Positions 5,878 through 23,181 of a DNA stretch of 64,000 nt are shown here, piece by piece. Position 1 is the stretch's first letter; every line of letters starts with the position of its first letter. The notes under the pieces are model-generated. The model did no database searches. It was not told where the DNA came from and saw only the letters and a list, made by a program, of their open reading frames with translations. A program made the position numbers and the translations under genes. This DNA is from Roseobacter sp. CCS2 (lineage in GTDB: Bacteria; Pseudomonadota; Alphaproteobacteria; Rhodobacterales; Rhodobacteraceae): positions 62,001-126,000 of the forward strand of contig NZ_AAYB01000006.1 of NCBI RefSeq assembly GCF_000169435.1, in the 5' to 3' direction.

Positions 5878-6924
5878 ATGGGACTGTTTATTTTGCGCCG
5901 CCTTGGGGTCATGCTCCTCACGGCACTTTGCCTGACATTTATCGTGTTTTGGCTGACGAACCTTGCACCGAACCTTGAAAAACTTGCCAAAACCCAAGGC
6001 AACGCCCGCATGTCGGACGAAGCTGTGGTCAGCTGGCTGGGAAACCGTGGTTATAGCCAAGCCTTGCCGATCAAATACGGCCAATGGCTCGGTGTTCTAC
6101 CCGGTTATGTGATTGAAGGCACGGATGGCGAGGTCCGCGCACGTTGCGCAGAACCGGGTCAACCGATTGAAGAGGCATCCAGCTTTTGCGGCATTCTGCA
6201 AGGGGATTGGGGCTATTCCACGGTCTTTAAGGACGAGGTTGGCAGCATCATCGCCACCCGATTGGGCCTGACCGGCAAACTGATGTTCTGGGTTATGATG
6301 GTGATGGTCCCCGGCGCATTGATTATCGGCGTGCTGGCCGGCATGCGCGAAGGCTCCCGGACTGACCGCAGCCTGTCCACCGTGTCCATCGTATCCACCG
6401 CGACGCCCGAATACGTATCCGGTGTTGTCTTCATCTCGGTCTTCGCGACCGCGACCTTTGGCATGCAATGGTTCAAAGGCACGGCAACTGGTGCGATGGA
6501 TGATGCAACGTTTGAGAATTTCTTTCTACCCGTCATCACCATCGCCCTTTACGGCATGGGGTATATCGCGCGGATGACGCGCGCCTCAATGACCGAGGTG
6601 ATGACCGCGCAATACATCCGCACAGCCCGCCTGAAAGGTGTCAGCTTTCCCAAGATCGTCATGAAGCACGCCCTGCGCAACGCGCTGATTGCCCCGTTTA
6701 CGGTGATCATGTTGCAGTTCCCGTGGCTGTTGAACGGTGTCGTCATCGTTGAGACCCTGTTCAACTACAAGGGCTTTGGCTGGGTGCTGGTGCAGGCCGC
6801 CGGCAATAACGACATCGAGCTTTTGCTGGGTGTTTCCATCGTTTCCGTCTTCGTGGTCCTTGTGACACAGCTGATATCCGACATCGGCTATGTGTTCCTG
6901 AACCCACGCATTCGCATTTCTTAA
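5878..6924 (+). CDS. ABC transporter permease, DppB-like
   Basis: First membrane subunit of the peptide-type importer, 348 residues. It begins with a membrane helix (LRRLGVMLLTALCLTFIVFWL) and contains the binding-protein-dependent permease domain. The cytoplasmic coupling segment is TAQYIRTARLKGVSFPKIVMKHALRNAL (about 242-269), which matches the EAA region of DppB-type permeases. Between the first helix and the main domain is a large outside loop (about 30-110) with a possible disulfide pair in RARCAEPG and SSFCGILQGDWGYS. It is separated by 15 bp from the second permease and should be co-transcribed with it. Confidence 0.93.
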   Translation: MGLFILRRLGVMLLTALCLTFIVFWLTNLAPNLEKLAKTQGNARMSDEAVVSWLGNRGYSQALPIKYGQWLGVLPGYVIEGTDGEVRARCAEPGQPIEEASSFCGILQGDWGYSTVFKDEVGSIIATRLGLTGKLMFWVMMVMVPGALIIGVLAGMREGSRTDRSLSTVSIVSTATPEYVSGVVFISVFATATFGMQWFKGTATGAMDDATFENFFLPVITIALYGMGYIARMTRASMTEVMTAQYIRTARLKGVSFPKIVMKHALRNALIAPFTVIMLQFPWLLNGVVIVETLFNYKGFGWVLVQAAGNNDIELLLGVSIVSVFVVLVTQLISDIGYVFLNPRIRIS

Positions 6925-20633: not shown

Positions 20634-22172
20634 TCAGCGTCCCTTAAAGAAGCTTCCCAGAATACCGCGCACCAGTCTGCGCCCGGTGGTCCCCTTCAAC
20701 TCCTTAACAACAACGGATGCCAGCGCACCGCCAAAACCACCACCCGACGACTTGCGCGCGGTGGTCGTTCTGCGCGAACTACGGCCACCTTCATAACGGC
20801 GTGCGGCCTTAAATTCGCGCTCTTTTTCTTCTAAACGTTCTTCTTCGACCTCGGCCTCTTCTGCTGCTTTCGCCGCGGCCTCCGCCCGTTTCGTCAGCAT
20901 CTCGAACGCGCTGTCGCGATCGAGCGTCTTGTCGTATTTACCTGCCATGTCAGAGGCGGACATGATCGCTTTGCGCGTGGGGCCATCAATGGGTCCCAGC
21001 TGTGATGATGGCGGGCGGATCAACGTCCGCTCAACAACCTGCGGAATGCCTTTACGATCAAGGAACGACGTCACCGCCTCACCGGTGCCGACCTCTTGAA
21101 TGGCGGCGGCTGTGTCAAAGGCCGGGTTGTCACGATAAGTTTCGGCGGCGGTTTTCAACTCTTTACGGTCTTTGGCGGTAAACGCGCGTAACGCGTGCTG
21201 CACACGGTTGCCCAATTGGCCCAGCACATCATCAGGAATGTCGCCGGGATTTTGCGTTACAAAATAAACGCCCACCCCTTTTGATCGGATCAGGCGCGCG
21301 ACCTGTTCGACCTTATCCACCAGCGCCTTTGGCGCATCGTCAAACAGCAGATGTGCCTCATCAAAGAAGAACACCAGCTTGGGTTTATCGGGGTTGCCGA
21401 CCTCGGGCAGTTCTTCAAAAAGCTCTGATAAAAGCCACAGCAGGAAAGTCGCATAAAGACGCGGACTGCCCATCAGTTGATCCGCGGCCAGAATATTAAT
21501 CTCGCCCCGCCCATCGCGGGTGCGCATCATATCGGCAAGGTCCATCGCAGGTTCACCAAACAGCGCTGTGCCACCTTGGTTTTCCAACACAAGCAACTGC
21601 CGCTGGATCGCGCCAATAGAGGATGACGCGACATTGCCGTAACGCAAAGACAATGCCTTGGCATTCTGGCCAACCCAAACCAGCAAGGCTTGCAGATCTT
21701 TAAGGTCCAACAGCGGCAGACCTTCTTCATCCGCCACGCGGAACGCCACGTTCAGCACACCTTCCTGCACATCCGTCAGATCCATCAGGCGTGACAGCAA
21801 AAGTGGGCCCATCTCGGCCACTGTGGCGCGGATCGGGTGACCCTTTTCGCCGAAAAGGTCCCAGAACGTGACCGGAAAGCTGTCGTATTGCAGATCAAGA
21901 CCAATGGTTTCGGCACGCGACATGAACGGTTCATGTAGCTTGAAATCGGGTGATCCGCTGACTGCAAGACCAGAAAGGTCGCCCTTTACGTCGGACAAAA
22001 ACACCGGCACGCCCGCAGCCGAAAATCCTTCGGCCATGATCTGCAAGGTAACGGTCTTACCTGTACCCGTCGCCCCGGCAATCAGCCCATGACGGTTCGC
22101 CTTGTCCAGCAAAAGGTTTTGCGCTGCGCCATAGCCTTCACCACCGCCGCCAATAAAGATATTCTCAGACAT
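20634..22172 (-). CDS. HerA-like DNA helicase/ATPase (DUF853 family)
   Basis: A cytoplasmic ATPase of about 512 residues. ATG 22172 ([10 protein letters not shown]) is chosen because the family begins this way; the open frame reaches 22313 but the extra part looks non-coding. Walker A GATGTGKT is near residue 35, and Walker [15 protein letters not shown] near 275, followed by a sensor-like [31 protein letters not shown] charged helical region ([27 protein letters not shown], about 425-450) and a basic, glycine/serine-rich segment end the protein. Family members are HerA/FtsK-type motors of poorly known role. It stands alone, convergent to the DctP-like gene. Confidence 0.88.
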
Positions 22173-22248
22173 GAAACTGCCATCCCCCACACATATTTTC
22201 CAAGCAAAATACATTGTTAACCAGTTCATGCCACAATAAAGCGCGTCC

Positions 22249-22322
22249 AACCGCAGTCTTTGCCGCGGATGGGCATACGACCTCCCTGTTAGACTTGCCG
22301 TGCCTTCGGGCACGGTTTTTTT
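22249..22322 (+). ncRNA. Candidate small RNA 1
   Basis: An intrinsic terminator on the plus strand ends here, but no plus-strand protein gene precedes it within 1.7 kb. A weak promoter pair (TTGTTA 22214-22219, 17-bp spacer, TAAAGC 22237-22242) would start a transcript of about 74 bases. The transcript contains a CCTCCC stretch (within 22282-22287) that could pair with Shine-Dalgarno sequences. This rests on terminator position and a weak promoter only. Confidence 0.3.
22298..22322 (+). terminator. Intrinsic terminator
   Basis: A 7-bp perfect stem (CCGTGCC, 22298-22304, with 22309-22315) closes on the very stable TTCG tetraloop and is followed by seven T residues (22316-22322). It faces the plus strand and has no upstream protein gene. 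Confidence 0.85.
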
Positions 22323-22368
22323 GCCGGAACGGCGTGGCCTGCATCACCAATTTGTCAAAGGTTTCCGG

Positions 22369-22397
22369 TTGACGCCTTGTTTGGCTTTGCGTAGCTT
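22369..22397 (+). promoter_or_regulatory. Sigma-70-type promoter upstream of the ialB-like gene
   Basis: TTGACG (22369-22374), a 17-bp spacer and TAGCTT (22392-22397). The -35 box matches five of six consensus bases, and the spacing is ideal. Transcription would begin near 22404, just upstream of a short leader ORF and a second terminator. Confidence 0.5.
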
Positions 22398-22403
22398 CCG
22401 TGA

Positions 22404-22471
22404 AAATAGTCGGCCAAGTCCGGCAGGGAGAACATGGAGAAGGGCCACTTGCGGGCCCTTCTTCGTTTTTT
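22404..22471 (+). ncRNA. Candidate small RNA 2 or transcription-attenuator leader of the ialB-like gene
   Basis: Between the promoter at 22369-22397 and the T-run at 22466-22471 lies a compact unit of about 68 bases. It could be a free small RNA, or the terminated leader of the IalB-family gene at 22579, with read-through under some condition. It includes a ribosome-binding site (AGGGAGA) and the start of an 18-codon ORF that runs through the terminator stem. A resemblance to SRP RNA was examined and rejected. Confidence 0.42.
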
Positions 22472-22490
22472 GACCCCCGCAAAAATGTGA
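22434..22490 (+). CDS. Possible 18-residue leader peptide
   Basis: ATG 22434 follows AGGGAGA at a 4-6-base distance and opens an 18-codon frame ending TGA at 22490. The peptide is basic and leucine-rich (MEKGHLRALLRF...). The codons lie directly on the arms of the terminator hairpin 22439-22461, so a translating ribosome would block hairpin formation. There is no run of one amino acid as in classic biosynthetic attenuators. Chance cannot be ruled out. Confidence 0.3.
   Translation: MEKGHLRALLRFLTPAKM
22436..22471 (+). terminator. Intrinsic terminator in the ialB leader
   Basis: An 8-bp perfect stem (GAAGGGCC, 22439-22446, with 22454-22461) is extended by further pairs outward (22436-22438 with 22462-22464). 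It is followed by G and six T residues (22466-22471). It lies 108 bp before the IalB-family start. Confidence 0.82.
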
Positions 22491-22578
22491 GCGAAAGACA
22501 GCGCAAAGGCTGGTTTTTTGCGCTGACACACCCAGCCGCACATGGTAAGCCGCCGGAAAAGCCAAAAGGACAAGACCT

Positions 22579-23181
22579 ATGCGCCGTATCCTCATCACCC
22601 TTTTTATCGTCGCCATGCTCGGCCAACCAACCGTCACGCTCGCTCAGGAAACGACGGAAGACACCGAAGCACCCGCAGCAACGGATGATCTTGCACTGGG
22701 GCAACCCGTCGGCCCGCAGGTGGGTGAACCTTATGTACGTGATGAGTTCGGGGACTGGGCCTTACGCTGCATCAAGGCAGAAGACGGCGTGCCTGACCCC
22801 TGCAATCTTTATCAACTTCTCAGCAACGCTGACGGCGTGGCCGTTGCCGAGTTTAACCTGTTTCCACTACCCGAAGGCCAGCAGCGTGCTGCGGCAGGTG
22901 CCACGATTGTTGTGCCGCTTGAAACCCTGTTGACCCAGCAATTGACCATTGCGGTTGATGGGCAGAATGCGCGCCGGTATCCGTTTACGTTCTGTAATCG
23001 TGCCGGATGCGTTGCCCGGCTTGGGTTCACACAAGAAGAAGTGGACGAATTGAAGCGCGGCAATGCAGCAACCATTCGTTTGGTGCCCGCAGCCGCCCCC
23101 GACGAAGAAGTTGTGCTAAATGTCTCTCTGACAGGGTTCACTGCTGGATTTACGGCGTCAACCGAAGCCGAAGCCGAGTGA
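22579..23181 (+). CDS. Invasion-associated locus B (IalB) family protein
   Basis: An exported protein of 200 residues with signal peptide MRRILITLFIVAMLGQPTVTLAQ. The mature part has the IalB-family core: DEFGDWALRCIKAEDG (about 55-70), CNLYQLL, a hydrophobic strand region VAVAEFNLFPLP, and the second cysteine pair in FTFCNRAGCVARLGF (about 133-147). The conserved cysteines suggest disulfides in the periplasm. The name comes from a Bartonella protein for erythrocyte invasion; in free-living alphaproteobacteria the role is unknown. Upstream lies a promoter followed by a terminator-like hairpin, suggesting leader control. Confidence 0.85.
   Translation: MRRILITLFIVAMLGQPTVTLAQETTEDTEAPAATDDLALGQPVGPQVGEPYVRDEFGDWALRCIKAEDGVPDPCNLYQLLSNADGVAVAEFNLFPLPEGQQRAAAGATIVVPLETLLTQQLTIAVDGQNARRYPFTFCNRAGCVARLGFTQEEVDELKRGNAATIRLVPAAAPDEEVVLNVSLTGFTAGFTASTEAEAE

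Follow-up and report, generated by a model that had tools for sequence, protein, structure and literature searches.

A candidate sponge RNA beside a SorX/SorY-like small RNA between herA and ialB in Roseobacter sp. CCS2 and its family

Does the gap between herA and ialB in Roseobacter sp. CCS2 hold a switch for the downstream gene, or small RNA genes of its own? The gap (22173-22578 of the window, the 64,000-nucleotide stretch of DNA analysed here) contains two terminators, a TTGACG promoter and a CCTCCC stretch, which the original prediction had read as one or two small RNAs or as an attenuator of ialB. Judged by sequence comparison, the gap appears to carry two predicted small RNA genes, here called sRNA1 and sRNA2, rather than an attenuator (Table 1).

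Two conserved units between herA and ialB

The two plus-strand terminators lie where the original prediction had placed them, the first as a hairpin at 22297-22316 with a T run to 22322, the second as a hairpin at 22434-22466 with a T run to 22471. The number of terminators alone is weak evidence (5 terminator-like sites per 1.8 kb versus 2.3, s.d. 1.5, in shuffles), and the observation stands above chance because it is conserved. When 198 genomes of the family were searched with the DNA, 55 had matches, most of which fell in two separate blocks at about 22280-22322, the 3′ part of sRNA1, and about 22408-22468. Within the genus (23 of 29 relatives compared, one of them without an sRNA2 match, leaving n = 22), mean identity to the window was 0.92 for the sRNA1 core, 0.92 for the sRNA1 terminator and 0.94 for the sRNA2 5′ arm; it was 0.39 for the spacer between the two RNAs, 0.50 for the 5′ part of sRNA1, 0.59 for the sRNA2 terminator, 0.70 for the sRNA2 promoter, 0.65 for the start of ialB and 0.83 for the start of herA. 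Covariance searches of both segments, as had been proposed, found sRNA2 in 173 of 197 family genomes and the sRNA1 model in 187 of 197. The pattern that had been named as counter-evidence, an unconserved region beside conserved neighbours, is thus not what these counts and the identities of 0.92-0.94 in the blocks describe; they are consistent with two conserved small RNAs. The proposed promoter, TTGACG (22369-22374) and TAGCTT (22392-22397) separated by 17 nt, is present in the sequence, and across homologous loci it is conserved as the pattern TTGA[CA]-N16-18-TANNNT; a sigma-70 promoter scan listed none in the region.

The 138 homologous loci behind many of our counts were drawn from 248 by requiring the sRNA2 pattern, sufficient flank and an sRNA1 pattern lying 70-300 nt upstream, with duplicates removed, and they exclude loci without a nearby sRNA1 or with variant cores (for example L002 and L015). 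Because they were selected on both patterns, their number is no measure of how frequent the pair is, to which the family, best-30 and order counts given in this text come nearer. The pattern scan that contributed 75 of the 138 returned at least 120 loci, with titles for 80 of them, including unrelated bacteria such as Streptomyces, none of them among the 138.

A transcription attenuation or leader-peptide switch of ialB is very improbable. Although ialB follows on the same strand in most loci, a promoter-like element of its own stands after the sRNA2 terminator in 117 of 136 loci; this count refers to a looser pattern, a stricter and badly specified one (1/136, shuffled 0.02) being left unused, and within the genus the element has an identity of 0.65, no better than the 0.63 of the preceding stretch. 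The RBS-like AGGGAG and the 18-codon ORF (MEKGHLRALLRFLTPAKM) covering the hairpin are present in the window as described, and 15 of the 22 relatives within the genus share the column of the ATG, but the ORF does not stand as a conserved feature: its ATG occurs in only 23 of the 138 loci, the frames of the relatives, 13 to 55 codons long, have no stop in common, and what likeness the leader peptides have reflects the overlapping hairpin. The fold predicted from an alignment of 28 sequences consists of the 5′ hairpin and the terminator only. The combination that defines an attenuator, a terminator in the leader of the regulated mRNA together with a conserved leader peptide, was not found here.

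Table 1. Features of the herA-ialB region (positions in the window)
Feature	Position	Strand	Evidence or remark
HerA-like ATPase gene (PF05872 HerA_C), divergent neighbour	20634..22172	-	upstream in 117/138 homologous loci
sRNA1, SorX/SorY/MmgR (alphaR8)-like	22249..22322	+	5′ end inferred from SorX model alignment; model R2, 67.6 bits
sRNA1 core CCTCCCTGTTAGACTTGCCG, anti-Shine-Dalgarno stretch and predicted pairing partner of sRNA2	22281..22300	+	alignment, genome pattern search, predicted duplex
sRNA1 intrinsic terminator	22297..22322	+	4/8 predicted pairs kept with two-sided changes, 26 sequences
sRNA2 promoter TTGACG-N17-TAGCTT	22369..22397	+	131/138 loci versus shuffled mean 0.68
sRNA2, candidate sponge RNA, ~68 nt	22404..22471	+	transcription start inferred from promoter spacing; covariance model R1
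sRNA2 5′ hairpin GUCGG-CCAAGU-CCGGC	22409..22424	+	100% of cells paired; one pair U-A, U-G or C-G; 3/5 pairs invariant
sRNA2 stretch antisense to sRNA1, SorX and SorY cores	22409..22430	+	22 bases; ends in SD-like AGGGAG (22425-22430)
sRNA2 intrinsic terminator	22434..22471	+	7/7 helix pairs with two-sided changes; 95.8% of cells paired
18-codon ORF of the original prediction	22434..22490	+	judged incidental; ATG in 23/138 loci, window included
ialB promoter-like element CTGACA-N17-TAAGCC	22523..22551	+	3′ of sRNA2 terminator; pattern in 117/136 loci versus shuffled mean 5.8
ialB (PF06776), downstream neighbour	22579..23181	+	present in 130/138 homologous loci, same strand

Other features were seen alongside these. 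A minus-strand open frame (22165-22704, 179 aa, TTG start) runs antisense across the whole sRNA region and is probably a chance frame. Between herA and sRNA1 lies the motif ATACAnnnTTAACCnTTnnnTGCCA (22206-22234), with TTAAC in 111 of 138 loci versus 12.9 in shuffles; its minus-strand reading resembles a herA promoter (GTGGCA-N17-TATTTT), and it may also drive or regulate sRNA1. At 6501-6679 on the minus strand the window has a full-length Rfam match to Cis52_sRNA (RF02647; 107.1 bits, cut-off 56), described as a Ruegeria sRNA.

sRNA1, its siblings and the distribution of sRNA2

The CCTCCC at 22281-22286, which had been proposed to pair with Shine-Dalgarno (SD) sequences, begins the sRNA1 core, and this ability is consistent with the resemblance of sRNA1 to SorX, SorY and MmgR. 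The layout of sRNA1 is a CCUCCC core followed by the terminator; the alphaR8-type 10-mer UUUCCUCCCU appears most commonly as CUUCCUCCCU in the sRNA1 of relatives and as CGACCUCCCU in the window, and the core is unpaired in the consensus fold, though not in the single-sequence fold. sRNA1 aligns over its full length with the SorX model (RF02784; 33.9 bits, E 1.6e-6, below the gathering score of 46.6) and also stays below the cut-offs of SorY (RF02651; 24.3 bits, gathering cut-off 111) and MmgR/suhB (RF00519; 18.1 bits, cut-off 41); 7 of 11 scanned loci of relatives pass the SorX cut-off.

The sRNA1 model often matches three places in a family genome. The genome of the window has three full-length matches, namely sRNA1 between herA and ialB, a copy 3′ of an OmpR-type regulator gene (the SorX place) and a copy between LysR and purL genes identified by sight of their translations (the SorY place); a fourth match is partial (E 0.098) and covers a terminator only. 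In genome G051, SorX lies at 2,598,226 and SorY at 1,632,645, the latter again between LysR and purL. These positions fit the R. sphaeroides 2.4.1 ends of 2,598,224 and 1,632,642 found in the consulted part of PMC6238624, and G051 is therefore taken to be that strain. Next to sRNA2, G051 has a third sibling that has diverged somewhat (1,426,674-1,426,755, minus strand), in a place additional to those of SorX and SorY, so that sRNA1 is neither of them. The sRNA2 of G051 occupies about 1,426,530-1,426,600, likewise on the minus strand. Identity with SorX was also rejected on the score, the herA-ialB locus and the occupation of the SorX place by another copy in the window genome, and identity with SorY on the score, the locus and the LysR-purL position of SorY in G051. 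The idea that the additional sRNA1-like copies represent UpsM at mraZ was not borne out, as those with flanks read stood at OmpR-type, LysR-purL or herA-ialB loci (flanks judged by sight of translations, three of the genes being checked separately). sRNA1 thus resembles SorX, SorY and MmgR in having a CCUCCCUG core and then a terminator, and differs from them in its herA-ialB locus, in reaching the gathering cut-off of none of the three models and in its third place in R. sphaeroides. The best explanation of these likenesses is that sRNA1 is a putative third sibling of SorX and SorY, unlinked to them.

Model R1 for sRNA2, built from 28 sequences, matches family genomes mostly in single copy (157/173 good quality). 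A search of the order gave 274 of 292 genomes and 109 of 112 genera but adds no range, since hits and misses alike, among the genomes listed, belong to the family of the window. Fourteen of the 18 misses fall in a single genus, g24, in which six further genomes give weak matches (E 9e-4 to 2.5e-6); this genus has probably lost sRNA2 or diverged strongly in it. Thirteen of 289 genomes in a sample of the class were matched, five within the family (E ≤ 4.5e-13) and eight outside it with E values of 1.6e-5 to 1e-3, which we regard as chance; the best of these weak matches (L120) has, in the printed stretch, a terminator hairpin without a matching 5′ arm. In 101 aligned matches, fitted to the R1 structure and including one weak second match in L097, 97.6% of cells were paired and 8 of 12 pairs had two-sided changes, values reached by 0 to 12 of 500 shuffles and by no slid control; the 28-sequence fold has the same two helices. 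sRNA1 stands just upstream in 27 of the best 30 sRNA2 hits, which resemble the source sequences of R1 itself.

Rfam 15, searched up to E 5, gave only chance-level matches on sRNA2, to Streptomyces-metK (E 0.62, 3′ end only) and a microRNA family (E 1.5). In the literature as covered by titles and abstracts there was no recognisable report of sRNA2, and it may be an unnamed entry in some sRNA list. The Paracoccus transcripts 'intergenic 134' and 'intergenic 60', as they appear in the consulted part of PMC5107571, could be sRNA1 or sRNA2. By its sequence, sRNA2 constitutes a new candidate RNA family.

In the locus of G051 (L267, G051:C4:1424500-1428500; taken as R. sphaeroides 2.4.1), a catalase gene replaces herA upstream of sRNA1-sRNA2-ialB; it lies on the same strand as both sRNAs, and read-through is conceivable. 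Identity of sRNA2 with UdsE (RSs2778) had been suspected via katE = RSP_2779 and was set aside: RSs numbers rise with chromosome position among the sRNAs that were placed (RSs0827, RSs1543, RSs1624 and RSs2461, the last of which we take to be SorX), so that RSs2778 would be expected near 2.9 Mb, not at 1.43 Mb. Identity with StsR was rejected, as the StsR probe (sequence from an excerpt of PMC11354728) maps at 858,073 in G051 and has no match with two or fewer mismatches in the window genome.

Predicted antisense pairing of sRNA2 with sRNA1, SorX and SorY

The original prediction had overlooked that the two RNAs are antisense to each other, sRNA2 reading GUCGGCCAAGUCCGGCAGGGAG from 22409 and sRNA1 reading CUCCCUGUUAGACUU-GCCG. 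When the 3.5-Mb window genome was searched with the sibling-core consensus CTCCCTGTTRGACTTGSCC at two or fewer mismatches, only four places matched: the SorX-place copy (0 mismatches), sRNA1 and the SorY-place copy (1 each) and the strand opposite sRNA2 (2); two further sites had three mismatches, and a reversed control gave 0. Since CTCCCTGTTRGACTTGSCC derives from the siblings, finding them again proves nothing, and only the lack of other sites is informative. As is characteristic of an RNA sponge, sRNA2 is thus complementary, over an extended stretch, to the seeds of other sRNAs encoded in its genome. As a side observation, the sRNA1 model weakly matches the strand opposite sRNA2 in L057 (1480-1558, minus strand; E 7.5e-4), which is expected from the antisense relation.

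The predicted sRNA1-sRNA2 duplex has a mean energy of -37.2 kcal/mol over the 138 loci, versus -18.8 for shuffled sRNA1, and pairing SorX or SorY with sRNA2 from their own genome gives -33.2 to -43.8 kcal/mol in 29 pairs, versus -18.2 when shuffled (30 pairs were tried, one being dropped as the sRNA2 pattern was absent). In the window genome the duplexes with sRNA2 reach -30.7 kcal/mol for sRNA1, weaker than the family mean, -37.1 for the SorX place and -40.6 for the SorY place, and full-length co-folding gains 11.8, 17.4 and 19.7 kcal/mol, respectively, over separate folds. Duplex energy is unspecific as such, since 94 of 15,990 windows in the 64 kb lie at -29 or lower (five of them being the opposite strand of sRNA2 itself), and only the SorX and SorY values fall below every non-self window (best -34.8).

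The right half (13 nt) of the sRNA2 arm has two variable bases, which are purines in 138 of 138 loci and face a U in sRNA1 at 136 and 137 loci; this count sets aside three single-locus changes, one of the two bases lies outside the hairpin, and 63 of the 138 loci come from searches that left these positions free, the other 75 from a pattern fixing purines at two positions. sRNA1 and sRNA2 of the same locus are predicted to bind more strongly than swapped partners, to a degree that none of 2000 permutations, which ignore relatedness, reached. For loop-length coevolution, with a raw table of 13, 7, 4 and 113, the tree yielded only 4 independent comparisons, of which 2 went in the same direction, 0 in the opposite one and 2 showed no change; with relatedness considered, these 4 are too few to show sRNA1-sRNA2 coevolution beyond the purine-U pattern. 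Native SorX/SorY-sRNA2 pairs had no such advantage over swapped ones: 1640 of 5000 permutations reached the observed value, the SorX/SorY core hardly varying. In 111 of 138 loci sRNA1 interrupts the duplex at a single position, with A-C in 100 of them, and sRNA1 may therefore not be the main target of sRNA2.

We propose that sRNA2 is a dedicated sponge of the anti-SD sRNAs sRNA1, SorX and SorY, comparable to CrfA acting on SisA-D, and give this reading a probability of about 0.65. A near-perfect antisense pair is kept side by side across the family, including Rhodobacter and Ruegeria, and sRNA2 therefore probably soaks up sRNA1. Two independent small RNAs would be made from the one gap. sRNA1 would cover the SD regions of mRNAs with its CCUCCCUGUURGACUU core, and sRNA2, a transcript of about 68 nt from its own promoter, would present near its 5′ end the 22-base antisense stretch, formed by the small hairpin and the SD-like AGGGAG. 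By pairing with sRNA1, SorX and SorY, probably with Hfq, sRNA2 would block or destabilise these siblings and free their target mRNAs. The sequence data bear out conservation, structure, synteny, a conserved promoter and complementarity to all three siblings within one genome. We infer that sRNA2 is expressed, that it depends on Hfq and that the effect runs in this direction, with the siblings inactivated by sRNA2; for the direction, sequence is no guide.

The complementarity could instead be a functionless relic of an inverted duplication that left two unrelated sRNAs, which we consider improbable. Adjacent genes with antisense arms could derive from an inverted copy, and the 4 independent comparisons are too few to show coevolution, but the predicted pairing of the arms is strong in 138 loci although the intervening spacer keeps an identity of only 0.39 in the genus, and in all 29 same-genome pairs the arm of sRNA2 also fits an unlinked sibling, SorX or SorY. 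A real pairing with a reversed or mutual effect, in which SorX, SorY and sRNA1 limit sRNA2, itself an ordinary regulator of its own mRNA targets, is unlikely, if less so than a relic. Within the genus, the antisense stretch is better conserved than any other part of sRNA2 (0.94), and as this stretch resembles the SD sequence and not its complement, it would be ill suited to the ribosome sites of mRNAs; the distance between the sRNA1 and sRNA2 cores (median 132 nt) would suit mutual titration, and according to the consulted part of PMC12559287 SisA lowers CrfA too in Caulobacter.

Significance and comparison with known systems

A sponge of SorX and SorY would concern studied stress regulators of R. 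sphaeroides, for neither of which an antagonist is named in the literature as far as it was covered. According to excerpts of PMC9438474 and PMC6238624, SorX and SorY act on potA and takP, and sRNA2 should therefore, if our reading holds, lift the repression of transport genes of this kind; how that repression ends would be explained by a conserved sponge. sRNA2 is a mostly single-copy gene and represents a candidate sRNA family without an Rfam 15 match beyond chance level. We suggest more tentatively, at somewhat less than even odds, that nearly every member of the family has one sponge gene fixed beside a target, silencing the whole SorX/SorY/sRNA1 group, that this arrangement may have arisen independently of CrfA, and that several alphaR8 siblings with one SD-mimic sponge are a recurrent theme in Alphaproteobacteria.

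Among known systems, StsR of R. sphaeroides, an 'sRNA targeting sRNA', pairs with the sRNA UpsM (PMC8307010, in the part consulted); sRNA2 would likewise act by pairing with another sRNA, and StsR differs in being a separate gene, to judge from the position of its probe in G051. QrrX of Vibrio, as told in the consulted part of PMC12559287, is a sponge of the Qrr sibling sRNAs and, likened by description, shares with sRNA2 the arrangement of one sponge against several siblings, in different bacteria. The closer description is that of CrfA in Caulobacter crescentus, which responds to carbon starvation and sponges the alphaR8 sRNAs SisA-D, a G/A-rich stem-loop pairing with the UUUCCUCCCU core and inactivating them with Hfq (PMC12559287, same part); a full-text count of that paper gave 0 for both 'SorX' and 'Rhodobacterales'. 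CrfA pairs via its second stem-loop, whereas the arm of sRNA2 is near the 5′ end and its gene adjoins one presumed target, and in the class sample of 289 genomes model R1 of sRNA2 matches nothing strongly beyond the family. Likened by description to the excerpted account of CrfA, sRNA2 is also one sRNA whose G/A-rich stretch is antisense to an anti-SD core common to several unlinked alphaR8 siblings, and a conserved sponge, if confirmed, would suggest that the CrfA-SisA arrangement of Caulobacter represents a general principle.
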